Source: Steroidobacter gossypii (GTDB lineage Bacteria > Pseudomonadota > Gammaproteobacteria > Steroidobacterales > Steroidobacteraceae). From it: DNA of 63,088 nt. The notes beneath the pieces were generated by a model. That model saw only the letters and a program-made list of their open reading frames with translations, searched no databases and had not been told where the DNA came from. Within the stretch, counting starts at the first letter, position 1. Each line of letters begins with the position of its first letter. Below are positions 18,848 through 61,622 of this stretch, piece by piece. The translations under genes and the position numbers were made by a program. The stretch is taken from NCBI RefSeq assembly GCF_016801985.1, contig NZ_JAEVLS010000011.1, positions 1-63,088 of the forward strand, written 5' to 3'.

Positions 18848-18856
18848 GAGAGGCAG

Positions 18857-23737: not shown

Positions 23738-24812
23738 TAGTCTCGTGCCCAGGGATGCGCCGTCTTCAACAGGTGAGACGCGCACGCATGAGGGGATGAG
23801 CATTGACCGATCGGCACTGGCGCTCACGCTCGCGCCGCTGCGTCCCTTATTGGATGATCCGGCCATCACCGAGATCTGCATCAACCGTCCGGGTGAACTG
23901 TTTCTTGAGACCTCCTCTGGTTGGCGGCGGGAGTCCTTATCCGCCGCCGACTTCCCCTGGTGCCTGCGGCTTGCCAAGCTGATTGCGCACTACACCCGAC
24001 AGCGCGTGGATGAAGAATCCCCGCTCTTGTCCGCCTCGCTCCCGACGGGTGAGCGCGTGCAGCTCGTGGTGCCGCCGGCCACGACGGCGCACACGGTCGC
24101 GATGGCGATTCGGCGGCCGGCCAGTTGCGTGTGGTCGGTGACGGAACTGGCCGAGCGCGGGCTGTTTCGTGCCACACGCGCCGCATCCGATGCGCCGGCG
24201 CCGGTCCAGCGCGAGCTTACGCGGCTGCTCGAACGGCGTGAGTACGTCGAGTTCATGAAGCTCGCCGTGGGGAGCCGTCAGAACATTCTGGTGTCAGGGC
24301 CGACAGGTTCGGGCAAGACCACCTTCACCAAGGCGCTGATCCGAGAGATCCCCGCCCATGAGCGGCTGATCACGATCGAGGATGCGAAGGAGCTCGTGCT
24401 CGATGAGCATCCCAATCACGTGCGGCTCTACTACAGCAAGGATGACAAGGGGGTGGCGCATGTCACGCCGAAGCAGCTGCTCGAGTCTTGCTTGCGCATG
24501 CGCCCGGATCGAATTCTGCTCGCCGAACTGCGGGCGGAGGAGGCGTTTGATTACCTGCGTAACGTGAACTCGGGCCATCCCGGGTCCATCACGAGCGTCC
24601 ATGCCTCGAGCGCGGAGCTTGCATTCGAGCAGCTGGTGCTTTTGATCAAGCAGAGTCCGGGCGGGCAGGAGCTCGCCCGCGCCGACATCAAACAGCTGCT
24701 GTATCTCTTGATCGATGTGGTGGTGCAGTTCGGCGTGTCACATCATGAACGATTCATTCAAGAGATTTGGTACGAGCCGGCGCGCAGGCAGCGGGGGGCT
24801 CATGCATCCTAG
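23712..24812 (+). CDS. virB11: Type IV secretion ATPase VirB11
   Basis: A 366-residue hexameric traffic ATPase. The N-terminal domain includes DDPAITEICINRPGELFLET. The catalytic domain has Walker A GPTGSGKTT, an Asp box at LITIEDAKELVL, Walker B-like RILLAELRAEEAFDYLRNVN and the His box GHPGSITSVHASS. VirB11 powers pilus assembly and substrate transfer with VirB4 and VirD4. The start at ATG 23712 lies inside the virB10 end; the open frame further upstream is shadow. It overlaps virD4 by 11 bases. Confidence 0.94.
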   Translation: MSFAPQAIDSLVPRDAPSSTGETRTHEGMSIDRSALALTLAPLRPLLDDPAITEICINRPGELFLETSSGWRRESLSAADFPWCLRLAKLIAHYTRQRVDEESPLLSASLPTGERVQLVVPPATTAHTVAMAIRRPASCVWSVTELAERGLFRATRAASDAPAPVQRELTRLLERREYVEFMKLAVGSRQNILVSGPTGSGKTTFTKALIREIPAHERLITIEDAKELVLDEHPNHVRLYYSKDDKGVAHVTPKQLLESCLRMRPDRILLAELRAEEAFDYLRNVNSGHPGSITSVHASSAELAFEQLVLLIKQSPGGQELARADIKQLLYLLIDVVVQFGVSHHERFIQEIWYEPARRQRGAHAS

Positions 24813-26790: not shown

Positions 26791-28067
26791 CGAGCCAGGA
26801 TCCGTTGGAGGAGGAGGATGGGGCAACTGCTTCTGCGCGCAGGCGCACCGACCCTGTGAGGAGCGCGCGGCTCAATGCGATCGCACCGGGCTCTTTGTCT
26901 TCTCGCCCATGGAACAGCGAGCGTCATGACGAGCGCGCGAACGGGCGCGCTCACGCGGGCGTCGGGCAGCCGCGAGCGCAGGGCGCACGTCAGAATGCTC
27001 GGAAGAGGTGGGAGGTCCCTGAGGAAATTCGAAAACGCTTCCTCGTCACCGGCAATAGCTACTACTTCCACGGTGGACAGCCGGCCTTCGTCGATCGCGG
27101 CGATCGGTTGACGACCCGCAGCGAGAACATCGAGGTGGCCACGAGCCTCGCCGCCATCGCGCAGGCGCGTGGCTGGCGCGAGATCACGGTCACCGGCACG
27201 GAGACGTTCAAGCAGCTGATGTGGCGCGCGGCCGAGCGCACAGGGGTCATCGTGCGCGACGACGAGGCCACTCTACGGATGCAGGCGGAAGCAAACCGCC
27301 AGGTGTCTCCTGGTGCGTCGGCCGCAGCGGAGCCTGCTGAACACGCGGAGCTCACCCTGAGCCAGGCGAGAACATATGAGCCACGCGCGCCAGTGACGGT
27401 GTCCCGACCCATGTCCACCGCCATGTTTGATGACGAGGCGTCCTCAGACCAGGCGCTACGAGAATGGCGAGGCCGGCTCATCGAACATGGGGCGGCGCCC
27501 TATCGGAACAAGACCGGGAACAACCCCTCCTATTTCATCAAGCTGCAGACCCGTGGAGGAAAGAAAACCTTTTGGGATGCAGATCTGAACCGCGCCCTGC
27601 TGACCTCGTTCTCTCGCCCGAAGATCGGTGATGAGGTGGTACTTCGTCGCTGGGAGCACGAGAGCGATACGATCAGGCGGATCGCGAGGGATGAAGATGC
27701 GAAGAGGAGGCCTGCGGCGTCTCAAATCCAACACGATCGCTATGTCATCGAGACGCACGATTTCTTGGAAGAGCGGGCGAGATTCTCACGCATGGTGCGC
27801 GATGCGTCGGTCTCCTCGCAGATCGCCACACAGCGGCATCCTCAGCTTGCGGGGTCGTACCTGCAGCTGCGCTTGGCGCAGGTCGTTTCCCAGCGCTTGG
27901 GCCATTCCGAGGATCAGCGCAGGTTCATGCACATCGTAAGGAACGCCGTGGCGGATGACATCGCGCGAGGAGAGCCGATGAGGATTGTTACACTTCGATC
28001 TCGCGCCGTTGCACGCGGCATCTCCCGCGAGCAGCCGGCCCGGGCTGCCGGGCTGCTGCGTGAATGA
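26787..28067 (+). CDS. LPD7-domain conjugation-associated protein
   Basis: A 426-residue soluble protein starting at an ATGA overlap with virD4. Residues about 85-155 (SYYFHGGQPAFVDRGDRLTT, SLAAIAQARGWREITVTGTE, FKQLMWRAAERTGV) match the LPD7 domain, found on relaxases and polyvalent proteins of mobile elements. The second half (about 225-400) contains a different module with GAAPYRNKTGNNPSYFIKLQ, KTFWDADLNRAL and a helical C-terminal segment. No relaxase HUH motif or catalytic tyrosine set is evident, so it is probably an accessory transfer protein or a relaxase fragment. Its second half is related to the next gene product. Confidence 0.75.
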   Translation: MTSQDPLEEEDGATASARRRTDPVRSARLNAIAPGSLSSRPWNSERHDERANGRAHAGVGQPRAQGARQNARKRWEVPEEIRKRFLVTGNSYYFHGGQPAFVDRGDRLTTRSENIEVATSLAAIAQARGWREITVTGTETFKQLMWRAAERTGVIVRDDEATLRMQAEANRQVSPGASAAAEPAEHAELTLSQARTYEPRAPVTVSRPMSTAMFDDEASSDQALREWRGRLIEHGAAPYRNKTGNNPSYFIKLQTRGGKKTFWDADLNRALLTSFSRPKIGDEVVLRRWEHESDTIRRIARDEDAKRRPAASQIQHDRYVIETHDFLEERARFSRMVRDASVSSQIATQRHPQLAGSYLQLRLAQVVSQRLGHSEDQRRFMHIVRNAVADDIARGEPMRIVTLRSRAVARGISREQPARAAGLLRE

Positions 28068-28080
28068 GGGGGAGGAGGCT

Positions 28081-28776
28081 GTGGATCGGGATCGCCGCAA
28101 ACAAGGTTCGTCACAGCACGAGCGTGCGCTGCCATCTCGCGAAGCGCGCAGGCTTGCCGGCGCAGGCTCACTCATCGTCGGTCGCTTGCAGAGCCATGGG
28201 ACAGCGCCGTATCAGTTTCGTCGGGGCGAGGAGATGTCCTATTACGTCGATCTCACCGTCCTGGGCAATCAGAAGCGCCTCTGGGGGAAGGATCTGAAGC
28301 GGGCGCTCGAGCAGGCCGAGACCAAGCCACAGCCAGGCGATGTCGTAGGGGTCCAGCTCGTCTCAAGACGCGCGTTCACGGTCACTCATCGCGAGCGTGA
28401 TAAGACGGGCCGGGTGATCTCTCAAACAGACCGCGAGGCGCACCGGAACGAATGGAAGATCGAGAAGGTTCAGTACTTCTCAGAGCGTGCGCGCGCGGCC
28501 CGGCTCGCTCGCGATGATCAGCGAGATCGCGCTCGTGCTCTTGCGCAACGCCCGGAGCTCAAGTCGACATTCCTGACGCTGCGTGCTGCGCAGGCGCTGG
28601 CGGAGCAGCGCCTGCCGAACGCGGCCGATCGTGAGCAGTTCTTGAAGCTCGTCAAGGAGGCCATCCACCAATCGACACTTACGAGGGAGTCCCTGCGAGA
28701 GTCGGGTCCGCGTGAACGTTCAATCAAGACGCCAGCGCCAGTACATCCGCGAAAGCGAGAGGATCCGGTGCGGTAA
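28081..28776 (+). CDS. Conjugation-associated protein related to C-terminal half of the LPD7 protein
   Basis: About 231 residues from GTG 28081, close behind GGGGAGGAGG; an in-frame GTG at 28060 that overlaps the previous stop is an alternative start. The segment LQSHGTAPYQFRRGEEMSYY, QKRLWGKDLKRAL, then QPGDVVGVQLVSRRAF and KVQYFSERARAARLARDD lines up with GAAPYRNKTGNNPSYFIKLQ, KTFWDADLNRAL and ETHDFLEERARFSRMVRD of the upstream protein. The two therefore share a module, probably a tandem duplication. The enzymatic role is unknown. It is the last gene of the transfer operon. Confidence 0.7.
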   Translation: MDRDRRKQGSSQHERALPSREARRLAGAGSLIVGRLQSHGTAPYQFRRGEEMSYYVDLTVLGNQKRLWGKDLKRALEQAETKPQPGDVVGVQLVSRRAFTVTHRERDKTGRVISQTDREAHRNEWKIEKVQYFSERARAARLARDDQRDRARALAQRPELKSTFLTLRAAQALAEQRLPNAADREQFLKLVKEAIHQSTLTRESLRESGPRERSIKTPAPVHPRKREDPVR

Positions 28777-46432: not shown

Positions 46433-47276
46433 GCGCGCACGTGCGTCGCCAACAGGTCGCGTTCGTGTGTGAACGTGGCGTGTCGCAGCGGCGAGCGTGC
46501 GCGCTGATGTCGGTGGCTAGATCAACGATTCGGTACGAGTCCCGTTTGCTGGCCAAGGATACGCCCGTGGTGGCAATCATGCGCGAGCTGTCGGCGCAGT
46601 ACCCGCGGTACGGTTATCGTCGGATCCATGTGTTTCTCAACCGCCAAGGCCATGTGATGAGCCTAGACCGAGCGCATCGGATCTGGAGGCAGTATGGCTT
46701 GCAGGTGCCCAGAAAAAGCCTCGCAAGCGCGTGGCAGCGAGCCGGCCCCGGCCACTGGCAGCGTCGGATGCCAACCAGGTCTGGGCCTATGACTTTGTGT
46801 ACGACGCCTGCGCCAACGGCCAGCAGCTGAAATGCCTAACCGTTATCGATGAGTACACGCGAGAGTGTCTGGCGATCGATGTCTCCGGAAGCATTCGATC
46901 GGCACGAGTCATCGAGTTACTCTCCCGGCTCGTCAGCACGCATGGCGCCCCACGGTATCTGAGGTCCGACAACGGGCCGGAGTTTGTCTCCACAGCCGTG
47001 CTACGCTGGCTGACGAAAGCAAGCATCGGCACCGCGCACATCGATCCGGGCAAGCCATGGCAGAATGGCTCGAACGAATCATTCAACGGCAAGTTTCGCG
47101 ATGAGTGCCTGAGCATGCAGTGGTTCAAGAATCGAGTCGATGCGAAGATCCTGATCGAAAACTTCCGACGTGAGTACAACGAGATTCGGCCTCACTCGAA
47201 CCTCGGACAGCTCACGCCTATACAGTTCAAACAAACCCTTTCAACAACGAGCCCGAAAGCCGCATCTCCGAAGTAA
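46426..47276 (+). pseudogene. IS3-family transposase OrfB, inactivated by a one-base deletion
   Basis: The integrase-type catalytic part of the transposase. The first frame covers SQRRACALMSVARSTIRYES and YPRYGYRRIHVFLNRQGHVM to QYGLQVPRK. At the AGAAAAAGCC tract near 46713 the frame is lost by one base. The shifted frame continues RVAASRPRPLAASDANQVWA, YDFVYDA (first D), RSDNGPEFVS (second D) and NGSNESFNGKFRDE (E), then RREYNEIRPHSNLGQLTP. The DDE triad is intact, so a single base restores it. A sequencing slip in the A run is possible. Confidence 0.85.
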
Positions 47277-47369
47277 TCACTGGTCCGAAGAAAGCCAGCA
47301 GGTCAGTGACAGCCGAGCGCGTTTCCGGCCACTACACGGGGTTGCGATTCTCGGTTGAACATCTGGTCG

Positions 47370-49136
47370 TCAGTCTAAGCAGAACAGGCGTGCTTCTTCG
47401 ATTTTCGCTTCACCCCCTGGATCGATCTGATTCGGGGCAATGGTGCCAAAGCGGGAGAAAAAACTCTTGATGTCGGGTTGGTTTAAGAACCGTAAGGCTC
47501 CAGAGTTCGGAACGCCTCCCGCGGGATCAAGTCTGATCAGATAGTCCGATCGGGCTCTGCGAAACGCGAATTGCATCAACGAATAGCCTTCTAAGTAGAA
47601 TCTCTCCAAGGATTTTCTGGACTCAAAGCTTCCAGGCGTCCCCCAAGAGATCTTCGCCCAGCCCATATCTCTACGCCATATCTTGATTTCCAAGGCTATA
47701 TAGTTGCTCGTTACGCAATAGTCGCGTATGTCGAAATAGATCGGCCCCAGTGCGAGTTTGGCGGAAGGGGCAGATTCTCTCAAATACTCGAGACCTGCCT
47801 CACCATATTTTGTTTCCTTCGAGGTCAGACGAATGTAGGCACCGTCACCAGAACCCAGTTCACCTTCGTCATCTTCTATCCTCTGAGCCGTCCATAACGG
47901 CGGATACAATGGCCACTGCGGGTTGATAGGTATAACCAAATCTGGCTTTAGCTTTTGGAACTTTGCGTACGCAGTCCACTGCAGGTGGGCACGTGAAAAC
48001 ACGTCCGCTGTTGATGGAGCGTTGACTTGTGGAATAGTCAGGAAATTCGCGGCGCATATGGCGCTCGTCAGACATGTCGTAGTTAGCTTAAGTACCATGT
48101 CGTCCTTTGCACAGACAAATGCAATGTAGAATATCAGCGAGTATGGAAATATGAAGTACCTTGCGAATATATCATTCATCGGATTGAGGTCAGAAATCGC
48201 GGCGTATCCGGACGCCATTGCGATAACAAACAACATGACAATCGCCGCGACGGCGGCAAGCGTAGGAGAGATCCATATCGCTGGATCGAGGCGCCGTCTC
48301 ACGAGAATCCATCGTACGAAGGAAAGCAGGGTGACACACCAAAACAGAACTGCTGTCGCACACGTGATTCTATTAGTCGCTCCGAAGAGTATCGAGGACC
48401 CGAGAGCATGGAGCCAGTGTTCCGTGCTCGCGTCCAGTGCGCTTTTGGATATCCTTGGCGACACAACAATCGATATCGCCTGAATCATCCCGCAGATGGG
48501 AACAATCGTATACATAGCCTTTCTTGACGCCCAGTCGCGAAGAGCGGCGAACCGAACCGCGAGGACGGGGATTAGTACTGATGAGAACGGACCACTGAGG
48601 CTGGCGACTACGAGGAACAATCCCTCTAGCAAGGAGGTTGGCTTGTGACTTGGAAGGCAGACGTAGAATGCAAGCGCAGTTCCGAGGAGAAAGAAGGAGG
48701 GGGTTAGATACAGGAACGAACATGCCGTGGCGATCGGCTGAAGGGCGATTGCGATGACGAGAAGTGCGATCAGATGATGATCAATGCCACTTCTTTCTGC
48801 CCGGGTGGTCAGCACGTAGACTATAGATAAGAACGGAACTATCGCTCCAAACAAGAAGATGTATGGGGTGATTGCAAGAGGTAAGGACCGGGCAAATAGA
48901 GCAACGATCCGTATATAGAGGTGATGGTAGCCCGCGTAGGCGGCCCACACCGACCGAATCCCTAGTTCATTGGCGTGTTTGATGAAGACGTAGCCGTCGT
49001 CAGCGAACAAGCTATCTTCCACAAAACTGATGTCCTCGACTCTCAAAGCAAGTGCGACGACTGCAATCGGAAGTATGAGCCAAAAGCTGCGCGTTCTGGC
49101 AAAGATCGGTCCGGCATTCATGTTATGAAAGCCCAT
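47370..49136 (-). CDS. Large polytopic membrane protein, GT-C-like, unknown function
   Basis: About 588 residues, with around ten transmembrane segments in the first 385 (FWLILPIAVVALALRV, ITPYIFLFGAIVPFLSIVYV, LIALLVIAIALQPIATACSF and others), then a soluble C-terminal domain of about 200 residues. The first periplasmic loop carries DISFVEDSLFADDGYVF, with acidic residues where GT-C glycosyltransferases place their catalytic Asp. This suggests a polyprenol-sugar-dependent glycosyltransferase, but the family is not certain. ATG 49136 was chosen; TTG 49178 and ATG 49121 are alternatives. The gene lies between insertion sequences on a separate strand from its neighbours. Confidence 0.65.
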   Translation of the reverse strand: MGFHNMNAGPIFARTRSFWLILPIAVVALALRVEDISFVEDSLFADDGYVFIKHANELGIRSVWAAYAGYHHLYIRIVALFARSLPLAITPYIFLFGAIVPFLSIVYVLTTRAERSGIDHHLIALLVIAIALQPIATACSFLYLTPSFFLLGTALAFYVCLPSHKPTSLLEGLFLVVASLSGPFSSVLIPVLAVRFAALRDWASRKAMYTIVPICGMIQAISIVVSPRISKSALDASTEHWLHALGSSILFGATNRITCATAVLFWCVTLLSFVRWILVRRRLDPAIWISPTLAAVAAIVMLFVIAMASGYAAISDLNPMNDIFARYFIFPYSLIFYIAFVCAKDDMVLKLTTTCLTSAICAANFLTIPQVNAPSTADVFSRAHLQWTAYAKFQKLKPDLVIPINPQWPLYPPLWTAQRIEDDEGELGSGDGAYIRLTSKETKYGEAGLEYLRESAPSAKLALGPIYFDIRDYCVTSNYIALEIKIWRRDMGWAKISWGTPGSFESRKSLERFYLEGYSLMQFAFRRARSDYLIRLDPAGGVPNSGALRFLNQPDIKSFFSRFGTIAPNQIDPGGEAKIEEARLFCLD

Positions 49137-49178
49137 TGTAGGTAGGGTGACGGTGAGCTTAGTTCCAAATGAGTTCAA

Positions 49179-49508
49179 CCGTTACTTCGTTGAACCGGGA
49201 GCTTGCCTCAAGGCCGTCACCGATGAGCCCGCGGGATAGTTCTGGCTGCTGCGGGCTCGCCGTGATGAAGGTGCGTGCCATTGGTCCCGGGCAAGCCGCT
49301 GGGCTGACTACTAGCTGCATATCGGTCCGATGCAGCCCTCCGAGAGGATTTCGCTTCGACGCCGTGGTGCCCAGAAGAGGAGCGAAGGAACGCTTTCCGG
49401 TCCAGCAACGATGTTCGTACAACGAAATAGCCTGACTCTGTTTAAGAGTCCTCGTCAGGCCTCGGTCCAGGCTATGCAAAGCGGACAATCAGGGCGACGA
49501 CCATTCGA
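49179..49508. other. No clear gene; possible remnant upstream of membrane protein
   Basis: A minus-strand frame here (to 49488) runs into the membrane protein start but has no recognised family. Possibly an old gene fragment. Confidence 0.3.
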
Positions 49509-49790
49509 TTAGTGCGCCCGGGCAGCGACCATGCTGCACTGTGTGCGTAGTAAGGCAATTGTTGAAAAGGTCGCGCTACTGTTTGCGGCGGACATAGAGT
49601 TTACTTCCGTGGTCGAGGCGGGCTCCAGATGAAACTGCAAACGATCGATCGAAGCCTGGCTTTGCTGGTTGACCACGAGATGACATAGCTCGCGCGGGCT
49701 CATTCCAAGCACGCGTCCAAATGCGCGCGCGAGACCGGTGCAATCGCGGTAACCGACAGCGTAGGTGATCGCGGCAATGGAAGATTCGTG
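49509..49790 (-). pseudogene. AraC-family regulator, C-terminal part, cut by IS21
   Basis: Reads, 5' to 3' on the minus strand, ESSIAAITYAVGYRDCTGLA then RAFGRVLGMSPRELCHLVV: the second helix-turn-helix of AraC regulators. It is followed by an unrelated tail ending at 49509. The 5' part is missing because an IS21 element was inserted. The TCGTG at 49786-49790 is one copy of the 5-bp target duplication. The preceding codons are found at 53340 onward. Confidence 0.8.
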
Positions 49791-49818
49791 TTAACGCCGA
49801 AGTAATACTGACCCAACC

Positions 49819-51416
49819 GGAGGTGCGGACGAAATCTTGGACTATCTGGAGGGTAGTTCATGTATTCGTACGAGGATCGGCTTCGAGCTGTGCGGCTCTA
49901 CATCAAGTTGGGTAAACGACTCGCCCTGACCATTCGTCAGCTCGGCTACCCGACGAAGAACGCACTCAAGCACTGGCATCGAGAGTACGAGCAGCGCCTG
50001 GATTTGTCCGCTGGCTACGTGCGCGAGCCGAAGTACTCGCAGGCGCAGAAGGAAGTGGCCGTCAAACACTACCTAGATCACGGCTGCTGCTTCGCGGTGA
50101 CGATTAAGGCGCTAGGCTATCCGTCGCGGACTCTGCTTCCTTCATGGGTCCAAGAACTGCGCCCACAGACGCGCACGCGCGTTGTTGGCCGAATCCAGGG
50201 CCTGACGCCAGCAATGAAGCAGTCCGCAGTCATCGAGTTATGCATGCGACAAGGAAGCGCGCAATCAGTGGCTCAAGGGCTGGGCGTGTCTCGGCCATCG
50301 TTGTACAACTGGAGGAATCAGCTACTCGGCCAAGATGCCTCCCGATCAATGAAGCGCAAGAAGAACTCCCCGCCAAGCTCTGAGCGAACCGAACTGCAAC
50401 AGCAGGTCGAGACGCTTCAGCGGGACATCCGTCGCCTGCGGCTCGAGCAAGACCTGCTGAAGAAGGCAAATGAACTCTTAAAAAAAGAACTGGGCATCGA
50501 CCGGCGGCTCCTGACGAATCGGGAGAAGATGCAGCTGGTTGATGCCCTGAGACCGACATACACGCTAACGGAGCTTCTCCGAGAAGTGGGCTTGCCCCGC
50601 AGCTCCTACTTCTACCATCGGGGCCGACTCGCAGTCGCGGACAAGTACGTCGAGGTGCGTCGCCTCATGACCGACATCTTCGAGCGCAACTACCGTTGCT
50701 ACGGCTACCGCCGGATGCAGGCATCGTTGACCAGAAAGTCCGTAAACGTCTCAGAGAAGGTCGTGCAGCGACTGATGAAGCAGGAGTGCCTGATCGTCGT
50801 CAAGCACAAACGTCGTCGATACGGCTCATACATGGGCGAGATCAGTCCGGCGCCGGACAACCTCCTGAACCGCGACTTCACCGCGGATGCACCGAACGAG
50901 AAGTGGCTCACCGACATTACAGAGTTCCAGATTCCGGCCGGCAAGGTGTACCTGTCTCCCATGATCGATTGCTTCGATGGCATGGTGGTCAGCTGGTCGA
51001 TCGGCACGCGCCCGGACGCCGAACTCGTCAATGCGATGCTAGACTCTGCTATCGAGATGGTCGCCGGCCGCGGCGACCGGCCCGTCGTGCATTCCGATCG
51101 CGGCAGCCACTACCGGTGGCCTGGATGGCTCTCACGGATAGCTGCCGCCAAGCTGGTCCGCTCGATGTCGCGCAAGGCGTGCTCGCCAGACAACGCAGCG
51201 TGCGAGGGCTTCTTCGGTCGCCTGAAGAACGAATTGTTCTACTCGCACAATTGGCTGTCCACGACCATCGAGGAGTTCATCGCCGCGTTGGACTCCTACA
51301 TCCGCTGGTACAACGAAGCGCGGATCAAGATCTCGCTGGGCGCACGCAGCCCCGTCGAGTACCGTAGCAATCTCGGGATCGCTGCTTAACCAGTCCAAGA
51401 ATTCCGCCGCATCCCC
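49819..51416 (+). mobile_element. IS3-family element nested in the left end of the IS21 element (1598 bp)
   Basis: Inserted between the outer and inner left repeats of IS21. The left end GGAGGTGCGG and the right end (reverse complement) GGGGATGCGG continue as related inverted repeats, including CTTGGAC. ACC at 49816-49818 and 51417-51419 fits a 3-bp target duplication. After removing the element and one ACC, the spacing between the two IS21 repeats becomes 14 bases, the same as at the right end. This supports the boundaries. Confidence 0.75.
49860..51389 (+). CDS. IS3-family transposase, single full-length frame
   Basis: 509 residues. The N-terminal part has two HTH-like segments (YSYEDRLRAVRLYIKLGKRL and LCMRQGSAQSVAQGLGVSRP), then a coiled coil (ELQQQVETLQRDIRRLRLEQ). 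The IS3-type HTH_21 region has RCYGYRRMQASLTRK. The integrase core has D in EKWLTDITEFQ, D in VVHSDRGSHY and E in FFGRLKNELFY, completing the DDE triad. The end is YIRWYNEARIKISLGARSPV. The frame is intact and unbroken, so this element could still be active. No orfA/orfB split is seen. Confidence 0.9.
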   Translation: MYSYEDRLRAVRLYIKLGKRLALTIRQLGYPTKNALKHWHREYEQRLDLSAGYVREPKYSQAQKEVAVKHYLDHGCCFAVTIKALGYPSRTLLPSWVQELRPQTRTRVVGRIQGLTPAMKQSAVIELCMRQGSAQSVAQGLGVSRPSLYNWRNQLLGQDASRSMKRKKNSPPSSERTELQQQVETLQRDIRRLRLEQDLLKKANELLKKELGIDRRLLTNREKMQLVDALRPTYTLTELLREVGLPRSSYFYHRGRLAVADKYVEVRRLMTDIFERNYRCYGYRRMQASLTRKSVNVSEKVVQRLMKQECLIVVKHKRRRYGSYMGEISPAPDNLLNRDFTADAPNEKWLTDITEFQIPAGKVYLSPMIDCFDGMVVSWSIGTRPDAELVNAMLDSAIEMVAGRGDRPVVHSDRGSHYRWPGWLSRIAAAKLVRSMSRKACSPDNAACEGFFGRLKNELFYSHNWLSTTIEEFIAALDSYIRWYNEARIKISLGARSPVEYRSNLGIAA

Positions 51417-51476
51417 ACCCCGCCGAGGCAAAAGTGACCCACCTGGGCGAGGATGACGGCTTTTTGAGCCGTCCAG

Positions 51477-53262
<1,786 letters not shown>

Positions 53263-53840: not shown

Positions 53841-55067
53841 TCACTGTTCCCTGGCAAATTCACGATAGATGGTGAGCATACGTTCGACGTCGGAGCGATG
53901 TTGATTGCGATAATCCCGCTGAGCGGTCCGTATCTCTGCAAGATGAGCCTCCAGATTCTGCGGGGTGAGGCGTTGTCCAACGATCTCGATTTCTGGCGAG
54001 AATATCTGCCGAACCATCCGGTCTCCGAGTGACCGAGTATAATGGCCGCAGTTAATGAACCACTGGAGACCTCGAGATCCTTCATAGATGCTTTCGGTGG
54101 TATATGGGCTATATGTATTCATATCCCAAAGATCGACGGGTCGATTGGGTTCGGCACTGTACTCCATAGCAAGGTGTAAAACGCGCCGCTTCCATTTCTC
54201 GAACGTTTCCCAGTGGCCGGCGTAATCGAGAACTTCGAGCATGTCTGCGTGATACGGATTGATGATCACAATCACGCGCGTCCCACGTTTCGCGCAGAGC
54301 TCGAGTATATCCCGCACACTCTGCATGGGCGCGAGCTTTTCATGCACGCCATGGAATCGGGTCACGGCGAGAACATCATCCAGTAGCCACATGGGATAGA
54401 ACCCGATGGAATCCTGCGGATGTTGGTAGAGCGAGAACTCCCAGTCACCGCTCAGCGTGTTAGAGGATCGTACAGATCGGTTTGCAGCTAGCACTTTGAC
54501 GCTATTGCCGAGCGCATCGAGGGAAAGGAGGGCAGCAACCGTGTCATTGAACTGCTCCCGCCGATAAGCCGGATTGGCCCCCCCCTCGTCGGTGACGGAG
54601 AGTCGTATGAACTGAGTTTCTGGCGGTCGCTGCGAGAGTTGATTCGTTAGAAAGAATTCGAAGTCGAGGCAGAGGACCACAAGTTCTAAGGGGTTCCGCG
54701 CGAGGACGTGTTGCAGGTAGCGATAGGACGTATACGGGTCCGCTGCGCTCATCGCTAGGTTGTAGACCGGCCTATAGCGGGGGGGCCAGGCGGGATTGGT
54801 GGCTTCGAGACCGATGGCGACTCGAGAGCTCCCTAAAATGACGGTACGTGGGTGGCTGCGCAGTACTTCATGGGCTTTCATCATGTGCTGGTATTGATCG
54901 GCCGCCGGCTTCCGAGCGTTGAGGCCATCGATCCTCGGCGTCCCGATGACAAGGTAGGGATCCATGGCCGCGTTAAAGATCACAACTGCCGAGAGCGTGA
55001 CGCCACAGACCAGCAGCCACGCGAGGATGAATCTGCGCGTCGGCGGAAGGGCATCAGAACTGGCCAT
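53841..55067 (-). CDS. Membrane-anchored SGNH/DltD-like protein paired with MBOAT
   Basis: 408 residues. One N-terminal transmembrane helix (FILAWLLVCGVTLSAVVIFN) leads to a periplasmic domain with VILGSSRVAIGLE, whose Gly-Ser-Ser fits the block I nucleophile of SGNH-type proteins that accompany MBOAT acyltransferases. VYNLAMSAADPYTSYRYLQH and ELVVLCLDFEFFL are also typical of such partners. No clear block V Asp-His was identified, so esterase or transferase activity is not proven. By position it corresponds to DltD or AlgJ/AlgX: it would take an acyl group from MBOAT and place it on an exported glycan. It overlaps the MBOAT gene by 14 bases and is last in the operon. Confidence 0.72.
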   Translation of the reverse strand: MASSDALPPTRRFILAWLLVCGVTLSAVVIFNAAMDPYLVIGTPRIDGLNARKPAADQYQHMMKAHEVLRSHPRTVILGSSRVAIGLEATNPAWPPRYRPVYNLAMSAADPYTSYRYLQHVLARNPLELVVLCLDFEFFLTNQLSQRPPETQFIRLSVTDEGGANPAYRREQFNDTVAALLSLDALGNSVKVLAANRSVRSSNTLSGDWEFSLYQHPQDSIGFYPMWLLDDVLAVTRFHGVHEKLAPMQSVRDILELCAKRGTRVIVIINPYHADMLEVLDYAGHWETFEKWKRRVLHLAMEYSAEPNRPVDLWDMNTYSPYTTESIYEGSRGLQWFINCGHYTRSLGDRMVRQIFSPEIEIVGQRLTPQNLEAHLAEIRTAQRDYRNQHRSDVERMLTIYREFAREQ

Positions 55068-56697
55068 AGAGGAATCGGCTGCTGCCCGTGAGGGCGAGAA
55101 ATCCGGCAGAAAAAAGCAAGGCCATCACGACCGCCGTGGCATAGGAGAGTGGTGCGCCTCCTTGTAGTAGGGCCCGTCCTATGGAGGTTGGCTTGCTCGT
55201 CAGAGGCGGCAGCGATTCCTCGGTAAAATCGAGCGCAGGTTGGTAGCGACTCAAAATCTCGAGAGAGTTTGGCATCATCACGACGACGGTGAGCAATCCC
55301 ACAATGCAGACAGTGGAGAAGCCATAGGCTTCCCAGTAAGCCCTCAACGTGACGCTTAGCCCGAGATCGTCGGCCCCGGTCATCTGAAGCGTTCTTAGAA
55401 CCGGCGCCTGTGCTCCGTTGAGTCCAAATAATCCACCCAGCACGGAGAACGCCGATTCGAGAGAAGGGGCGCGAAAGAATACAAAGGACACGGAAACGGC
55501 AAGAAAGGTCAGAAGCCATCCGACGGGTCCCATGACTCTCTCGTAGACGAGATTGTTCGGCCAGAAGCGGGGACGCAGGATGCGCCACGCCTGATTGACC
55601 GTGAGATAGATTCCGTGCAGGACGCCCCATGCGACAAAGGTCCAGGCGGGACCATGCCACAAGCCAGACAATGCCATCGTCAACACCGAGGGAATCGCAA
55701 TCAGGGTCCAAATCGCGGAGAGCGCCGAGCCCTTTCCTTCGAGTACGGGTTTGCCCTCGAGCAGGCGACGTCGTGACAAATTGACGACGAGCGGCGTGTA
55801 GCTGTAGGCCGTCAGAAAGCGCGTCAAGGAAATGTGCCAACGATTCCAGAAGTCGACGATCGACACGGCTTTGTAGGGCGAGTTGAAGTTCATTGGCAGC
55901 CGCACTCCCAGCATCCGCGCGGTGCCCAATGCCATATCCGAGTATCCCGAGAAGTCGAAGTAGATCTGCAGCGTGTAAGCGAGAATGCTCGTCCAAGCCG
56001 TGAGTAGTGGAGGATATCCCTCGCCTGCGAAGTCGAAGGCAGCAGGCGCGAAGACGCCGACTCCATCCGAAATGACGCATTTTTTGAAGAGCCCGAGTGA
56101 AAAGAGACAAAGTCCGATCGCGAGTTCTCGCGCGGGGCAGGACACTCGGTGGGTTTCGAACTGGGGAACTAGCTCATTATAGTGAACGATGGGGCCCGCG
56201 ATCACTTTTGGAAAGAAGAAGTTGAACAGAAGATACTCAGTCAAGCGCAAGGACTGAATCTGACGCGACCATGCATCAGCAAGCAGGGCGATCTTCTGAA
56301 AGACAAAAAATGATATGCCTAGAGGAATGATAATGTGAGCGGCCTCCAAATGAGTGCCGAGAACACTGTTGGCGGTATGCAGAAAGAAATTCGTGTACTT
56401 GAAATAGCCTAGGCAGGCGATGTTCGCCAGGACGCCAATGATGAAAGCGGTCAGTCTGACACGATGATTTTCAGGCGCGGATTCGATGATCACCCGTACT
56501 AGGATGTAGTCCAGTAGAATGGATGACGCTGAGATGAGTAGGCTCCATGGTCCGCCGCCAACGAGATAGAAAACGACGGAGCACGTGAGCAACCAGTACG
56601 ATGCAAATCGATGACTCACACCGGCGGAGAGCAGCCAATAGCCGGTAACTGCTATAGGTAAGAATATAAGAATAGAGGGGAACGAATTGAAGGACAC
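55054..56697 (-). CDS. MBOAT-family membrane O-acyltransferase (AlgI/DltB-like)
   Basis: About 547 residues, polytopic. The family core is clear: YFKYTNFF, then FPKVIAGPIVHYNELVPQFE, YTLQIYFDFSGYSDMALGTA, VDFWNRWHISLTRFL and LSGLWHGPAWTFVAWGVLHG, where the last His is the catalytic residue. It moves acyl groups from a carrier across or at the membrane. GTG 56697 was chosen, 14 bases after the FkbH stop; the open frame upstream overlaps FkbH. Its neighbours (ACP, FkbH, SGNH-like partner) suggest the donor is an ACP-bound small acyl group rather than acetyl-CoA. Confidence 0.92.
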   Translation of the reverse strand: MSFNSFPSILIFLPIAVTGYWLLSAGVSHRFASYWLLTCSVVFYLVGGGPWSLLISASSILLDYILVRVIIESAPENHRVRLTAFIIGVLANIACLGYFKYTNFFLHTANSVLGTHLEAAHIIIPLGISFFVFQKIALLADAWSRQIQSLRLTEYLLFNFFFPKVIAGPIVHYNELVPQFETHRVSCPARELAIGLCLFSLGLFKKCVISDGVGVFAPAAFDFAGEGYPPLLTAWTSILAYTLQIYFDFSGYSDMALGTARMLGVRLPMNFNSPYKAVSIVDFWNRWHISLTRFLTAYSYTPLVVNLSRRRLLEGKPVLEGKGSALSAIWTLIAIPSVLTMALSGLWHGPAWTFVAWGVLHGIYLTVNQAWRILRPRFWPNNLVYERVMGPVGWLLTFLAVSVSFVFFRAPSLESAFSVLGGLFGLNGAQAPVLRTLQMTGADDLGLSVTLRAYWEAYGFSTVCIVGLLTVVVMMPNSLEILSRYQPALDFTEESLPPLTSKPTSIGRALLQGGAPLSYATAVVMALLFSAGFLALTGSSRFLYGQF

Positions 56698-56710
56698 GGG
56701 CCTCACCCGA

Positions 56711-58627
56711 TCACGCAGATGACACTGCCTTGACTTCAGTCTCGATCGCAACGGGCATCGCGGTGTAGGTGGTGATATCCAACTTCCATTTGCTCAGACG
56801 TCCTTCCCTCGCATAGATCCCGAACCCCATGTTGGGATAGTGATGCTCCACAAGGCCGTTTCGATCGCTGGGTATATATTCACCGACGAGCGCCGTGGCG
56901 CCGGCCGCTCTGGCGCACGTGACGATATGGTTGAGCATGCAATGCTCTATCTTACGATTGAAGACTCGGCAGCTCATCAACCAGGTATCGATGGTCCAAG
57001 CCGAGGAGTTCTTCAGACAGATGGCGACGGCAACGATCCCGTTGTCGCCAAATCGATCCAAGAGGCGAACCTGCAGCGTAAACGCAGAGTCGGCCCGCTC
57101 ATATTCCTCAACCTGAAGTTCCGTGTAACGACGATTCGTCAGGTTGAACTGATTGGTCTTGTTGATCAGTTGTGTGATCCGGCTGCGAGCGATCGGCTCA
57201 AAGGGCGCCAAGATGGCCCGCATTTGTAGCGACTGCAGGTACACATCCAAGCTGGGCGCAGCTTTGAGTGCTTTGGCTCTCCTCGCGTTACCGACATATT
57301 GATCTGCTCGATTACGATCCTCTGAGGTGAATGCGCAGGACTCGAAGTAACCTGCGGCAAGCAGTGTCGGCACGTAGAGTGCCGGGTCATCCGGGAGCTC
57401 CGGCACGGCCACCCGGGGCAACTGTCGGCGCACCTGCTCGCGCTCTGCGGGATTATCATCGAGTAGGACGAGTGCATCTAGGCCGACATTGAGTTCCCTG
57501 GCGATCGCCTCGATGTTCGATGCCTTGTCTTGCCAGTTGGCCTGGAACACACTGAGATGGTGTTCACGAAGAAGCATGTCAGGATGAGACCGAAAGGCGG
57601 CGCGCGCTACTTCCTCATCGTTCTTCGATGAGACCGCAAGGAGAATCCCTCGGTCACGCAACGCCAGTGCTGCTCGCTGTATCGAAAGATGGGCCTCTCC
57701 GGTAGGGCTGCCGTTGCCAATCTGGATGCCGGCCAAGCCCTCGTCACCAATCACGCCGCCCCACAATGTATTGTCTAGGTCGAGCACCAAGCACTTCCGT
57801 GCGCGGCCCAGGGCGGCGCCAATGAGTCGGCCAAACCAGTCCGCATAGAGGGGAAGAGCCCCGTGACTGAAAGAAAACTTGCCGACAGCCCACTGCACTG
57901 GATCGTGCCACGTGTGAAGACCGACGGCCTCAGCGAGCGCGGCAGAATCCAGCAGCAGTTTGCCCGGCTGGCGTGCGCGCCGCCTGATCTCGGCATTGAG
58001 GCGATCAATCAGCCATTGCGTCGTGCCTTGGAGATTCCGATCCAAGCTTCCGAATAGTGCCTCGGCTACTTGAGGTAGCGTTTGAAGAATGATGGTGCAG
58101 TCGCAGACTGAGTGCAGAGCCTCGCACGTCGAATCCACATACTCGAGAGCTGTTCGGATTTCTGCCTCTGCCTGCGTCTCATCGCCGGGACAAGGAGCGA
58201 ATGGCAGGCCTCGATGGTCAATGCACAAGAGTATGTAGTTACATCGAGCTTCGTTGATTTGTGAGTGTGGGTTGAGCGCCGAGTGTGCGACGTCGTTGAA
58301 GGGAGAAGTGATTATCTTCATCCACACCCCGTGTCTCAGCGCACTGACGCAAAGTGCCGGTGCGAGAAGTTCTGTGGTGCCGTTGGAAAGGATTCCAAGC
58401 CGGATCACGTGTGGATCCGCCTCTACCATGCGTTGTATCGCCGAGCCGAGCTTGAAAAGCTGATTGGTGTTGAGGCGATATTGCGACAGCTGCCACGCAT
58501 CGTTGCGAACCTCTTCGGAACTGACGATGAGCTCGCCAACCCGCCGCCGGAAATCCTCCGCTGGGCTGACCAGCCAGGGCAAAGAGTCGAGTCCAGTATT
58601 CATGGAAGAAATATCAGCGTACGTCAT
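56711..58627 (-). CDS. FkbH-like HAD protein (glyceryl-ACP loading type)
   Basis: 638 residues with ATG 58627 overlapping the ACP stop (ATGA). The first 270 residues form an FkbH N-terminal region. The HAD domain starts at CLVLDLDNTLWGGVIGDEGL near 282, with motif II at LLAVSSKNDEEVARAAF and the acidic motif at ALVLLDDNPAEREQVR. The C-terminal 170 residues look like a GNAT-type fold (FGDNGIVAVAICL, MSCRVFNRKIEHCMLNHIVT). FkbH enzymes take glycerate from 1,3-bisphosphoglycerate, dephosphorylate it and load it on an ACP thiol; relatives make lactyl-ACP-type units. The next gene upstream is an ACP, as required. Family firm, substrate inferred. Confidence 0.9.
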   Translation of the reverse strand: MTYADISSMNTGLDSLPWLVSPAEDFRRRVGELIVSSEEVRNDAWQLSQYRLNTNQLFKLGSAIQRMVEADPHVIRLGILSNGTTELLAPALCVSALRHGVWMKIITSPFNDVAHSALNPHSQINEARCNYILLCIDHRGLPFAPCPGDETQAEAEIRTALEYVDSTCEALHSVCDCTIILQTLPQVAEALFGSLDRNLQGTTQWLIDRLNAEIRRRARQPGKLLLDSAALAEAVGLHTWHDPVQWAVGKFSFSHGALPLYADWFGRLIGAALGRARKCLVLDLDNTLWGGVIGDEGLAGIQIGNGSPTGEAHLSIQRAALALRDRGILLAVSSKNDEEVARAAFRSHPDMLLREHHLSVFQANWQDKASNIEAIARELNVGLDALVLLDDNPAEREQVRRQLPRVAVPELPDDPALYVPTLLAAGYFESCAFTSEDRNRADQYVGNARRAKALKAAPSLDVYLQSLQMRAILAPFEPIARSRITQLINKTNQFNLTNRRYTELQVEEYERADSAFTLQVRLLDRFGDNGIVAVAICLKNSSAWTIDTWLMSCRVFNRKIEHCMLNHIVTCARAAGATALVGEYIPSDRNGLVEHHYPNMGFGIYAREGRLSKWKLDITTYTAMPVAIETEVKAVSSA

Positions 58628-58875
58628 TGAGTGACAGTCGAGCACTTCTTCTCAATCATGGTGACGAGTTGCCCGACGTCCTTTAGCGACGCTATCTCCG
58701 GCGTACTGAATCGGATGGAGAATCTTCTCTCGATCTCGAGGAAGAGGCGCACGTTACCGAGGCTGTCCCAGCCGTTGACCCGCTGAGCGTTGAGATCTGG
58801 GGTCGCCACGATCGCGTCATCGTCGAAGACGTCGCGAAGTATTGCCGTTAGCGATTTGTAGATGGGCTGAGTCAT
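58624..58875 (-). CDS. Acyl carrier protein
   Basis: 83 residues. The motif NGWDSLGNVRLFLEIERRF places the phosphopantetheine serine at about residue 38, and helix III ends with ASLKDVGQLVTMIEK. ATG 58875 was chosen; the longer frame adds unrelated sequence. First gene of the four-gene minus-strand operon, overlapping FkbH by four bases. It is the expected acceptor for the FkbH-loaded acyl group and probable donor to the MBOAT protein. Confidence 0.9.
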   Translation of the reverse strand: MTQPIYKSLTAILRDVFDDDAIVATPDLNAQRVNGWDSLGNVRLFLEIERRFSIRFSTPEIASLKDVGQLVTMIEKKCSTVTQ

Positions 58876-59033
58876 ACAAGCGATTTCCCTGGCATGATTA
58901 TCTTGAAATGTGAGCACGCGCTGTGATGAAGTCAATGCACGACGATCGTCCTGCACGAGTAGTTCCGGGAACGTCCTAACATGCGCGTGTGTGATCCGCG
59001 TTGCGCCGTCGTGTCAGCCGAGGAATAATCGAT
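58876..59033. promoter_or_regulatory. Divergent promoter region between ACP operon and MaoC-SDR gene
   Basis: 158 bases between divergently transcribed genes. It should contain both promoters. No clear -35/-10 pair or operator could be assigned by eye. Confidence 0.45.
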
Positions 59034-60464
59034 ATGAATAGGAAAGTATTTGATCCTCAAAGCCAGCAGCGCTTCGCTGAGTTGAGTCGAGATCGCAATC
59101 CCGTCCACGTCGATACCGTCGCAGCCCGGCGTATCGGCTCCGGCTCGACCATCGTGCACGGCATTCACTCAGTGTTATGGCTGCTCGAGTCCGTCGTCGA
59201 CGGCGGGGTCTCGGTGAACGGGTTGGGACGCCTGCTCGTGAAGTTTCGGTCACCCATTCTGGTGGGCGACGAAGTGACTTCGGAGATTACGTGCAGATTG
59301 CCGAATCTCATCCGCGCCCGGCTGTGGGTCGACGATACCGTTGCATTGGCAGTCTCGATGGAATTTGCGGGTGCGCTCGATCTAGATAGAGCTGGAGGGA
59401 TGCACTGTGCTGAGGTCGCATCGTCGCCCAGCTTCTCTGCAAACGACCTCAACCTCGAAGAAATGAAAGGGGTCTGCGGCGCGCTCGATTTTCATGAAAT
59501 TGTGGAGGGAGCTCGGGGCATGTTTCCCGCGGTATCGAGATCAATCGGCGCAGAGCGGGTGGCTTTCCTCGTCACTCTTTCGTGCGTGGTTGGGATGATC
59601 GTGCCGGGTCTTCATTCCTTCTTCGCAGGCCTCGATATACGACTCCGTCGCGCCGAGGGAGTTTCAAGTAACGCCTTGAGCTACGCTGTGAGATCGGTGG
59701 ATCGTCGTTTCCGGCTAGTTCACATCGACGTGGTCGGTCACGACATGCATGGAACACTCGAAGCGCTCGCACGCATGCCACCAAAAAATCAGCCCGCAAT
59801 GGCACGCATCGCCGCTCGGGTTCGCAAAGACGAGTTTCGTCGCTCCATCGCTTTGGTCGTCGGAGGCTCGAGAGGCATCGGGGAGCTCACGGCGAAGTTG
59901 ATCTGCGCGGGCGGCGGCAGCGTCATAATCACCTATTCCATCGGCGAGGCGGATGCGAACCGTGTTGCGGACGACATCCGAAGGACTGGGGGGCGATGCG
60001 ACGTGCTCCAGTACGACGTGCGCAAGAGCGCCATGGAGCAGTGGTCAACGGTCGATCAGGCGCTACCGGACCATATCTACTATTTCGCCACGCCGATGAT
60101 TGCGCGGCACCGAACGACAGTCTTTAGCCGAGCGCGCCTCGAGGAGTTCGATGACTTCTACCTCCACGGCTTTGCAGATCTCGTACAGATCTGTATGACA
60201 AAGCACCCTAGTGGAATGAGGGTTTTCTATCCGTCGAGCACGTTCGTGGATACCCGACCATTACACATGACGGAATATGCAATGTCCAAGGCGGCCGGAG
60301 AAGTTCTTTGCACGGATCTACCGCGAGCGTTCCCTGGGCTCGAGGTGGTCGCGAGGCGCCTACCGAGGTTGCCCACCGATCAGTCCAACGGCCTGGAAGA
60401 GAGTGAGATGGCCGATCCCATTGAGATCATGTTACCTATCGTCAGGGAAATGGAACATCGATAG
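59034..60464 (+). CDS. MaoC-type hydratase fused to a short-chain dehydrogenase
   Basis: About 476 residues from ATG 59034 (GAGGAAT site upstream). The N-terminal hot-dog domain has RFAELSRDRNPVHVDTVAAR and RIGSGSTIVHGIHSVLWLLE, the (R)-specific hydratase/MaoC signature with catalytic Asp and His (D-x-N-x-x-H, then VHG). A second, weaker hot-dog-like stretch follows (about 140-270). From about 275 an SDR begins: ALVVGGSRGIGELTAKLICA (cofactor site) and TEYAMSKAAGEVL (Tyr-x3-Lys). Such a fusion could hydrate an enoyl thioester and reduce or oxidise a 3-oxo/hydroxyacyl unit. Divergent from the ACP operon, so possibly a tailoring enzyme for the carried acyl group. Confidence 0.85.
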   Translation: MNRKVFDPQSQQRFAELSRDRNPVHVDTVAARRIGSGSTIVHGIHSVLWLLESVVDGGVSVNGLGRLLVKFRSPILVGDEVTSEITCRLPNLIRARLWVDDTVALAVSMEFAGALDLDRAGGMHCAEVASSPSFSANDLNLEEMKGVCGALDFHEIVEGARGMFPAVSRSIGAERVAFLVTLSCVVGMIVPGLHSFFAGLDIRLRRAEGVSSNALSYAVRSVDRRFRLVHIDVVGHDMHGTLEALARMPPKNQPAMARIAARVRKDEFRRSIALVVGGSRGIGELTAKLICAGGGSVIITYSIGEADANRVADDIRRTGGRCDVLQYDVRKSAMEQWSTVDQALPDHIYYFATPMIARHRTTVFSRARLEEFDDFYLHGFADLVQICMTKHPSGMRVFYPSSTFVDTRPLHMTEYAMSKAAGEVLCTDLPRAFPGLEVVARRLPRLPTDQSNGLEESEMADPIEIMLPIVREMEHR

Positions 60465-60473: not shown

Positions 60474-61622
60474 CTATTCGGCCAGTCGTTGCTGAAACCA
60501 TCGTGCGATGTAGTTGTAGGCGTCACGGACTTCAGTCGTTTCGATCGCGGCAAGTTGAGCGGCATGGCCACCGCCCTCTATGAGGTAGAGGGAAGAGTCC
60601 ACACCGAGCTTCAGGAGGCGAGTATGCGCAACAATCACCGGGCTCATCTCATAGGCTCGCGTGCCGCTCAGGAACAGCGTGGATGGAAACTGGGCGAGCA
60701 CGGCGTCGAACTTCCCTGGGTAGGCGCTTGGATCCTCTCGATTCGCCTTCTCCATGTACCAGCTCAAGGGTGCTAGACGGGCGCGGTCAGTTTCAGTGAG
60801 TTCACTCTTCGGGAGTAACTCGCCGCTGGCCCATATGCTGGAATCGCCGCCCAGGTCCCAGAGAGTGGGCGTAGTCGGCGGGGCATAGCAGAAGATGCCC
60901 GCCGCGCCGGGGCGAGGCAACTCGCGAGCTTGGAACCAGGCGATGGCCTGGGCGGTGAGAGCGCCGCCGGCCGAGCAACCAAAGATGCCGATGGACTGTG
61001 GCTTGTAAACTGTGAGCAGCGCGCGATATACCGCCTCGACATCTTCGCTTGCGGCAGGGTACTCGTACTCTGGCGCCTGACGATAGTCGATCGTTACGAC
61101 CTTGAACTTGCCAATAGCTGCGATTGGGATGGACTCGAGTTGACCGGCGCTCAGTCCACGGCCGTAGACGAATCCGCCGCCACGAAGATTGATGAGGACT
61201 TGATGGCGGCGCTTGGGCGTGATGCCCTCGACAGGGGCGATCACGCCCACGTGCACACCCGCAATGTGGGTGTCCGTCACAGTGACTGGATAGCGCGCTT
61301 TGAGCGTTGCTAAGGTCTTGCTCAGGTATTGCTGCTGTGCTGCATCGACTTTATCCCACAACGCGCGGGGTGCATCTCGCGGCGGGAGTGGCGAGGGAGG
61401 CATGGCCGTGGCGGACCACTCTGCGGCATTCGCCCGATGCCAGCTTTTGAAGCTAGGACTCCAAAGATTCGAAGGAGGTATCGTCAGTGCCTTGATGTAC
61501 AACGTACCGTCCGCGGCTACCCGCGATTCTTCCTTATCTGTCATCGCCGTTTGTGAAGCGACTGCCACTGTGGCAACAGCTGCGACTAGGAAACTCAGGC
61601 CGTGCATCAATGCAACTCTCAC
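60474..61622 (-). CDS. Secreted alpha/beta hydrolase (HSL/esterase family)
   Basis: 382 residues with a signal peptide (LMHGLSFLVAAVATVAVASQ). The oxyanion motif is NLRGGGFVYG (a variant of HGGGF), the nucleophile motif IGIFGCSAGGALTAQ (GxSxG with Cys replacing the usual Asp of GDSAGG), and the C-terminal His is in LIEGGGHAAQLA. These place it in the hormone-sensitive-lipase (type IV) esterase family. It probably cleaves short acyl esters in the periplasm. It is convergent with the MaoC-SDR gene, ten bases apart. It may act on the ester group added by the MBOAT system, but that is speculative. Confidence 0.88.
   Translation of the reverse strand: MRVALMHGLSFLVAAVATVAVASQTAMTDKEESRVAADGTLYIKALTIPPSNLWSPSFKSWHRANAAEWSATAMPPSPLPPRDAPRALWDKVDAAQQQYLSKTLATLKARYPVTVTDTHIAGVHVGVIAPVEGITPKRRHQVLINLRGGGFVYGRGLSAGQLESIPIAAIGKFKVVTIDYRQAPEYEYPAASEDVEAVYRALLTVYKPQSIGIFGCSAGGALTAQAIAWFQARELPRPGAAGIFCYAPPTTPTLWDLGGDSSIWASGELLPKSELTETDRARLAPLSWYMEKANREDPSAYPGKFDAVLAQFPSTLFLSGTRAYEMSPVIVAHTRLLKLGVDSSLYLIEGGGHAAQLAAIETTEVRDAYNYIARWFQQRLAE

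Follow-up and report, generated by a model that had tools for sequence, protein, structure and literature searches.

A putative carrier-protein-fed MBOAT/SGNH surface acylation operon with FkbH as loading enzyme in Steroidobacter gossypii

A contig of Steroidobacter gossypii (NZ_JAEVLS010000011.1; 63,088 nucleotides, analyzed whole and hereafter called the window) carries a four-gene operon for an acyl carrier protein (ACP), an FkbH enzyme, a membrane O-acyltransferase (MBOAT) and a membrane-anchored SGNH-like protein. This operon probably specifies a surface acylation system in which the MBOAT and its SGNH partner are fed by a carrier protein. Surface acylation by MBOAT/SGNH pairs is itself known, and it is the carrier-fed, FkbH-loaded version that appears to be new. 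A wider generalization, which falls just short of what we would call probable, is that Gram-negative bacteria hold a group of MBOATs fed by carriers rather than by CoA, with interchangeable loaders (mostly FkbH, in some cases an AMP ligase), which would export 2-hydroxyacyl groups drawn from glycolysis to the envelope. The group would be glyceryl in the basic system and lactyl where a dehydratase-ketoreductase fusion converts glyceryl-ACP.

The operon and its gene products

The operon is made up of the following features.

58875-53841, minus strand: four-gene operon (ACP, FkbH, MBOAT, membrane-anchored SGNH-like), one tight unit
58624..58875, minus strand: acyl carrier protein; ATG 58875, stop 58624, phosphopantetheine Ser codon 58764-58762 in WDSL
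56711..58627, minus strand: FkbH, predicted HAD-type glyceryl-loading enzyme; start ATG 58627
55054..56751, minus strand: MBOAT; open reading frame (ORF) start TTG 56751, conserved part from about 56697, catalytic His codon 55656-55654
55057..55074, minus strand: C-terminal FLYGQF of the MBOAT (window translation), the FXYXXF acyl-shuttle motif of PatA and DltX
53841..55067, minus strand: predicted membrane-anchored SGNH-like acyltransferase; Ser codon 54827-54825, His codon 54044-54042

The packing of these genes is close, with the FkbH ATG sharing bases with the ACP stop codon (ATGA) and an overlap of 14 bases between the MBOAT and SGNH-like reading frames. A preliminary description of this DNA had named the same four genes and likened them to the Dlt system, and all four are confirmed here at the same coordinates. 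Catalytic motifs are found in every one, save that the DxxH motif of the SGNH-like protein has Asn for Asp. The genome amounts to 7.1 Mb, of which the window is one whole contig, and it yields one MBOAT match and one FkbH match, both inside the operon.

The ACP matches the NCBIfam models for acyl carrier protein (1.2e-6) and DltC (2.5e-5; 24.3 bits against a cut-off of 52.35), both below cut-off, and no Pfam family at 0.001; its W-D-S residues are conserved in at least 90% of 71 aligned rows. FkbH scores 290.7 bits with TIGR01686 (cut-off 146.65) and 38.5 bits with PF21211, and it matches 3slr in PDB by sequence (BF1531, 1e-57). D289 and D291 of the HAD DxD motif, K374 and the C-terminal C559 (numbered from GTG 58645 of the ORF) are conserved in at least 95% of 81 rows. 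The preliminary description had proposed that FkbH takes the place of DltA, and the genome is in keeping with this, as the 34 DltA matches found in it include none over the TIGR01734 cut-off. The partner ACP adjoins FkbH in the window, and at 72 of 80 FkbH loci an ACP is found no more than 1 kb from FkbH and on its strand, the 80 loci being the best 80 of at least 564 relatives of the window FkbH and not a random draw, with some cut by contig ends.

The MBOAT scores 101.5 bits with PF03062 and 180.9 bits with the DltB model TIGR04091, below the cut-off of 375, and its sequence relatives in PDB at an E value of 0.01 are DltB only (structures 8jem and 6bug); by these matches it is related to DltB but is not a DltB equivalog. 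Both the catalytic His and the C-terminal FXYXXF are present (H366, F560, Y562 and F565), and H366 is conserved in at least 90% of 48 rows. According to the available part of a mechanistic study, PatA acetylates the Tyr of its C-terminal FXYXXF motif, an SGNH protein can accept the group from an FXYXXF-type peptide, and the Dlt system has this motif on the separate DltX (PMC12148441). The motif occurs in 39 of the 46 complete MBOATs of the FkbH loci, and 59 of the 60 MBOATs in the phylum sample described below have it too; it is thus a mark of the MBOAT/SGNH class as such and not of the link to FkbH.

The SGNH-like protein matches no Pfam or NCBIfam family and no sequence in PDB. It has GSSR near its N-terminus and a conserved His near its C-terminus, and its AlphaFold2 model (predicted local distance difference test, pLDDT, of 76) places an N-terminal helix at residues 9-35. 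We aligned it with 29 genes downstream of the MBOATs of FkbH loci, omitting the near copy L037 (loci and regions are cited by such handles), and of the 30 rows, 28 keep the G of the motif, 25 the nucleophile Ser, 23 the Asp and 27 the His. The downstream gene had to encode at least 250 residues, a rule under which 14 of 47 MBOATs had no such gene and three had FkbH there, leaving 30. Pfam assigned GDSL to six rows and ALGX to three; one row each matched a glycosyltransferase, a methyltransferase and Abi_2, and thus not every gene downstream of an MBOAT is an SGNH protein. When the model was compared with PDB by Foldseek, the best match was DltD (6o93, 6.5e-5, template modeling score, TM, of 0.36, root-mean-square deviation, rmsd, of 11 Å). 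The first 11 rows (E values 6.5e-5 to 1.4e-3) are DltD (6o93, 6pfx, 7dxm) together with 3bma, titled D-alanyl-lipoteichoic acid synthetase, which we take to be DltD; platelet-activating factor acetylhydrolases follow, and PatB lies lower still.

Recurrence of the gene set at FkbH loci

With profiles built from the window proteins and an iterated search, an MBOAT was found at 46 of the 80 FkbH loci. The 47 MBOATs at these loci compare with 0.43 expected from the MBOAT density in 24 of the genomes over the 1.42 Mb that the 80 loci span. ACP, FkbH and MBOAT stand close together on one strand at 39 of the 80, and three other bacteria (L015, L016 and L023) have all four genes, including an SGNH gene of the same family. 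A genome survey for the conserved set had been suggested in the preliminary description, and in these counts the set does recur. Its flanks differ, with RlmL and EAL-GGDEF genes in L015 and secD after the set in L023, which indicates that the unit travels or persists by itself.

Neighboring proteins at the other loci were compared with Pfam and NCBIfam (109 of the 164 listed were scanned). Methyltransferase families appear in up to seven and glycosyltransferase family 2 in five, and no common acceptor pathway emerged from these tallies. L-lactate dehydrogenase models match two of the scanned proteins, and ORFs with an FMN-dependent 2-hydroxy-acid dehydrogenase motif stand just before FkbH in three loci (L057:8292-9659, L059:5116-6552 and L064:8401-9729). 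In one locus, L071, a stretch of about 20 kb contains two separate FkbH-ACP-MBOAT sets and one more FkbH-like ORF, the third.

Proposed mechanism and the MaoC-SDR gene

Next to the operon is a gene on which, as on the FXYXXF tail of the MBOAT, the preliminary description had been silent.

59001..60464, plus strand: MaoC double-hotdog dehydratase fused to an SDR ketoreductase (PF01575 and PF00106); likely start ATG 59034, divergent from the ACP gene

Hydratase residues D31, N33 and H36 and SDR residues S412, Y426 and K430 are invariant in 20 of 20 MaoC-SDR rows. In its predicted structure (pLDDT 88) the order of elements gives two hotdog-like units and one Rossmann unit, and the PDB matches of the model are SDRs and the MaoC-like dehydratase 5i7n. 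We searched for MaoC-SDR in 25 genomes, 24 of them chosen for their FkbH loci, and found it in 11, always as a single copy. Ten of these 11 copies belong to an FkbH locus. In L024, L035, L043 and L208 the gene stands between FkbH and MBOAT. At an E value of 1e-60 none was found in the 273 other genomes of a class sample (up to five candidates scored per genome), and weaker relatives are present at three of the 11 stand-alone FkbH loci of that sample.

The substrates, step directions, acyl group, acceptor and activity of the system we infer as follows. FkbH would take the glycolytic intermediate 1,3-bisphosphoglycerate, strip its phosphate and load the glyceryl group on the ACP; the substrate of FkbH is the D form. 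In this strain the MaoC-SDR protein probably dehydrates glyceryl-ACP (to enolpyruvyl- or pyruvyl-ACP) and then reduces it to lactyl-ACP, while close relatives without MaoC-SDR would use glyceryl. At the cytoplasmic side the MBOAT would receive the acyl group from the ACP and bind it to the Tyr in the FLYGQF at its own C-terminus; from there the SGNH protein would transfer the group to an extracytoplasmic polymer, at a hydroxyl. Going by its two domains, a dehydratase and ketoreductase acting on glyceryl-ACP could give lactyl-ACP, and a comparable step supplies the lactyl starter in bryostatin; we found nothing on such a lactyl-starter step in the open-licence literature. The MaoC-SDR neighbor thus offers a concrete route to lactyl, and we infer glyceryl or lactyl as the group transferred. 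A lactyl branch in this strain we hold to be possible, if somewhat doubtful.

It is also important to consider that the same machine may export glyceryl and not lactyl, with MaoC-SDR acting elsewhere or otherwise, for example in an oxidation as in methoxymalonyl-ACP pathways (the available part of PMC7489565 proposes that dehydrogenases oxidize glyceryl-ACP). Such a reading varies the carrier-fed scheme and does not exclude it. None of the three nearest four-gene loci has MaoC-SDR, the genomes of L015 and L016 give no match to it at 1e-10, and 36 of the 46 MBOAT-bearing FkbH loci are without a full-length MaoC-SDR in the stretch examined; all of this counts against lactyl, and since the nearest four-gene loci do without the fusion, glyceryl is the likely plain product. 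Set against a glyceryl-only scheme for this strain are the placement of MaoC-SDR at the FkbH locus in nearly all genomes that have it and its position between FkbH and MBOAT in the four loci named above, and on balance we consider that scheme rather doubtful here.

Relationships among MBOATs and the question of the donor

MBOATs were also sampled without regard to FkbH. The phylum sample comprised 398 genomes searched with the MBOAT profile (at most three candidates scored per genome), of which 94 matched at 124 places, and we took 60 of the 123 places besides that of the window (ranks 1-40 in order and 20 picked by hand). FkbH is present in four of these 60 regions and ACP in seven. A tree of 122 MBOAT rows was then made with a quick method, with support from the Shimodaira-Hasegawa-like approximate likelihood ratio test (SH-aLRT) only and a midpoint root for drawing, and most of its FkbH rows had been chosen through FkbH. 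It splits, with an SH-aLRT of 100, into a side of 47 rows that includes the window (43 with FkbH, three with ACP only, one with neither) and a side of 75 rows (nine with FkbH, one with ACP only, 65 with neither). The FkbH label requires 10 changes on this tree vs. 39.3 in shuffles, and none of 500 shuffles was as low. If only the 60 regions are counted, four of five on the window's side have an ACP, against three of 55 on the other (Fisher p = 3.4e-4), and leaving one row out gives three of four vs. three of 55 (p = 2.4e-3).

We also made a 106-row tree without the 15 FkbH-locus MBOATs that lie outside a 33-row clade of an earlier tree and without the near copy L059. Its clade of 38 has 33 rows with FkbH, three with ACP only and two with neither, and the rows outside number three, one and 64 in the same order; for the 60 regions, ACP is present in five of seven inside and two of 53 outside (p = 7.6e-5). 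The carrier contrast between tree sides persists in the 122-row tree, if slightly less sharply. In these trees L105 is labeled as having neither gene, despite an FkbH and ACP about 9 kb off beside another MBOAT (L139). As a control, 16 MBOAT regions from FkbH-bearing genomes, outside the known linked ones, gave 15 with neither FkbH nor ACP and one, L139, with both.

An exclusive clade of FkbH-linked MBOATs was considered and rejected, as adding the 60 MBOAT-chosen rows put AMP-ligase-linked and unlinked rows inside it. Two of these, L200 and L201, are nested among FkbH-linked rows; close to their MBOATs lie genes for an AMP ligase and an ACP and two SGNH genes of ALGX type, with an extra gene for an acyl-CoA dehydrogenase in L201 and for an NfrA/TPR-like protein of 1652 residues in L200. 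A search of both genomes found no FkbH; in the genomes of L205 and L206 FkbH is on other contigs. With an AMP ligase and ACP in two FkbH-free genomes, the MBOAT group looks carrier-fed rather than exclusive to FkbH. The L200 and L201 sets apparently serve another carrier-fed acylation, and we read the whole as one transferase group fed by carriers with interchangeable loaders. A region in which an ACP gene is followed by a radical SAM protein gene and then by an MBOAT gene (L212:6787-8777) is perhaps a further kind of carrier-fed set.

The distribution of the carrier also bears on whether the MBOAT and SGNH-like protein might be an ordinary acetyl-CoA-dependent O-acetyltransferase, with ACP and FkbH as a separate supply of C3-acyl groups that shares the operon by chance. 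An Azoarcus pair (L126) does combine an MBOAT with the same SGNH family and has no FkbH or ACP nearby, and 52 of the 60 sampled MBOAT regions have neither ACP nor FkbH in the stretch examined, some of these stretches being short. Chance association fits poorly, however, with a tight four-gene order that repeats in distant genera with different flanks, with a carrier whose presence tracks the MBOAT tree, and with an operon that contains the sole FkbH of the genome, and we consider this alternative unlikely.

Weighing the evidence

Several observations weigh against a carrier-fed, FkbH-loaded system, or at least limit how far it can be extended. Most sampled FkbH genes and most sampled MBOAT genes are unlinked, the low FkbH count in the 60 MBOAT regions being one side of this. 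On the other side, FkbH is over cut-off in 16 of 274 genomes of the class sample, at 18 places, from which the window and six places in reading frames of more than 1000 residues were set aside; of the remaining 11 stand-alone loci, two on contigs of about 3.5 kb, eight have an ACP and only one has an MBOAT, so that the linkage is not general. FkbH by itself does not differ between the sides of the 122-row tree among the 60 regions (one of five vs. three of 55, p = 0.30), and in the 106-row tree the contrast is two of seven vs. two of 53 (p = 0.063). The earlier tree had given a clean FkbH clade of 33 rows with support of 100/99, which came in part from picking rows through FkbH. Ten MBOATs linked to FkbH or ACP lie on the far side of the 122-row tree, which means that the link was gained or retained on more than one occasion, and L205, L208 and L041 shift place between trees.

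Other points concern the single parts. In the window's SGNH-like protein the Asp common to 23 of 30 rows is replaced by Asn, and the resemblance of its predicted structure to DltD is weak support because the DltD matches have TM values of 0.30-0.40 and rmsd values above 10 Å. A promoter and terminator scan at the operon gave signals at chance level. There is no polysaccharide cluster beside the operon, and glycosyltransferases are a minority of the 109 neighbors scanned elsewhere. Relatives of MaoC-SDR also occur away from FkbH, at C77 of genome G073 and in L206. The latter (L206:1473-3032, 5e-128) is about 5 kb from an MBOAT on the window's side of the tree, in a region with no visible FkbH or ACP; the FkbH of that genome is on another contig.

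The acceptor might instead be a secreted small molecule or lipid, with the operon tailoring a natural product, as nonribosomal peptide synthetase (NRPS) genes at 15-6346 of the same contig and the joint presence of FkbH and MBOAT in suomilide-type clusters might suggest (there, in the available parts of PMC13122637 and PMC10143770, an FkbH domain loads glycerate in the NRPS and the MBOAT is proposed to acylate a sugar); this is improbable, as about 47 kb with conjugation and transposase genes separate the operon from the NRPS genes, which are read from the opposite strand, FkbH and MBOAT act on different parts of the suomilide molecule by the same sources, and both the pairing with an SGNH protein and the FXYXXF tail belong, in the available part of PMC12148441, to the acylation of envelope polymers. 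FkbH as a feeder of the NRPS of this contig was rejected on the same grounds of distance, strand and intervening genes. For the other outlet that the preliminary description had raised, an FkbH-ACP pair feeding a polyketide pathway elsewhere, nothing speaks so far, and the genome has its one FkbH.

Other features of the window

The remaining features noted are as follows.

15-11664, plus strand: small NRPS-like cluster with an A-T protein, a C-A-T-reductase protein, two E1-type 2-oxo acid dehydrogenase subunits, an SDR and a glycosyltransferase
16505-28776, plus strand: VirB/Trb-type conjugation genes, coupling protein included, together with FecR and a short N-terminus of a TonB receptor that has only plug and STN
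46731-53190, plus strand: transposase genes, including IstB/IS21-type, directly downstream of the operon
60474-61622, minus strand: hormone-sensitive-lipase-like esterase, convergent with the MaoC-SDR gene, which could remove esters or be unrelated

Comparison with known systems

If the carrier-fed scheme holds, it would be a second, widespread class of carrier-fed system, the MBOAT/SGNH export step would be an adaptor for many acyl groups, glyceryl or lactyl esters would be predicted on the surfaces of many Proteobacteria, and these esters would be tied directly to glycolytic flux via 1,3-bisphosphoglycerate. The gene set is also a candidate for making the glycerate esters of exported polysaccharides such as gellan. 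We did not find a carrier-fed, FkbH-loaded MBOAT/SGNH system with a possible lactyl branch in the open-licence literature; in its available parts nothing joined MBOAT, SGNH and "acyl carrier protein", FkbH and MBOAT came together only for cyanobacterial NRPS products, and no enzyme was named for glycerate esters on polysaccharides such as gellan. Such esters do occur on exported bacterial polysaccharides, the gellan and welan gums (PMC9104527, available part). The glycerate of gellan is the L form, whereas the FkbH substrate is the D form.

The use of FkbH with a discrete ACP is shared with glyceryl loading in polyketide pathways (FK520 methoxymalonyl-ACP and tetronates; PMC7489565, available part), whereas here no polyketide synthase stands beside the operon and the putative receiver is the MBOAT. 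An MBOAT with a C-terminal FXYXXF and a separate SGNH protein is likewise what PatA/PatB, alginate, cellulose and other acetylation pairs have in the available part of PMC12148441; the difference is that the operon here includes a carrier and its loader, and this gene context points to a carrier instead of acyl-CoA as the donor to the MBOAT. That 2025 mechanistic study, as far as available, gives a carrier to Dlt among the MBOAT/SGNH pathways and says that the remaining ones lack it.

With Dlt (DltA, DltB, DltC, DltD and DltX; D-alanylation of teichoic acids) the operon has in common a carrier, a loading enzyme, an MBOAT and an SGNH-like protein. The analogy drawn in the preliminary description is supported by this gene content, by the DltB-only relatives of the MBOAT in PDB, by the weak structural match to DltD and by the way in which MBOATs linked to a carrier group together in the trees, and its substitution of FkbH for DltA is supported as well. 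A plain Dlt system is not what we find: no DltX lies between the genes, which leave no room for one as neighbors abut or overlap (a distant DltX was not searched for), and the shuttle motif is instead the C-terminus of the MBOAT itself. FkbH stands in for the adenylating DltA, and the acyl group would be a 2-hydroxy acid.

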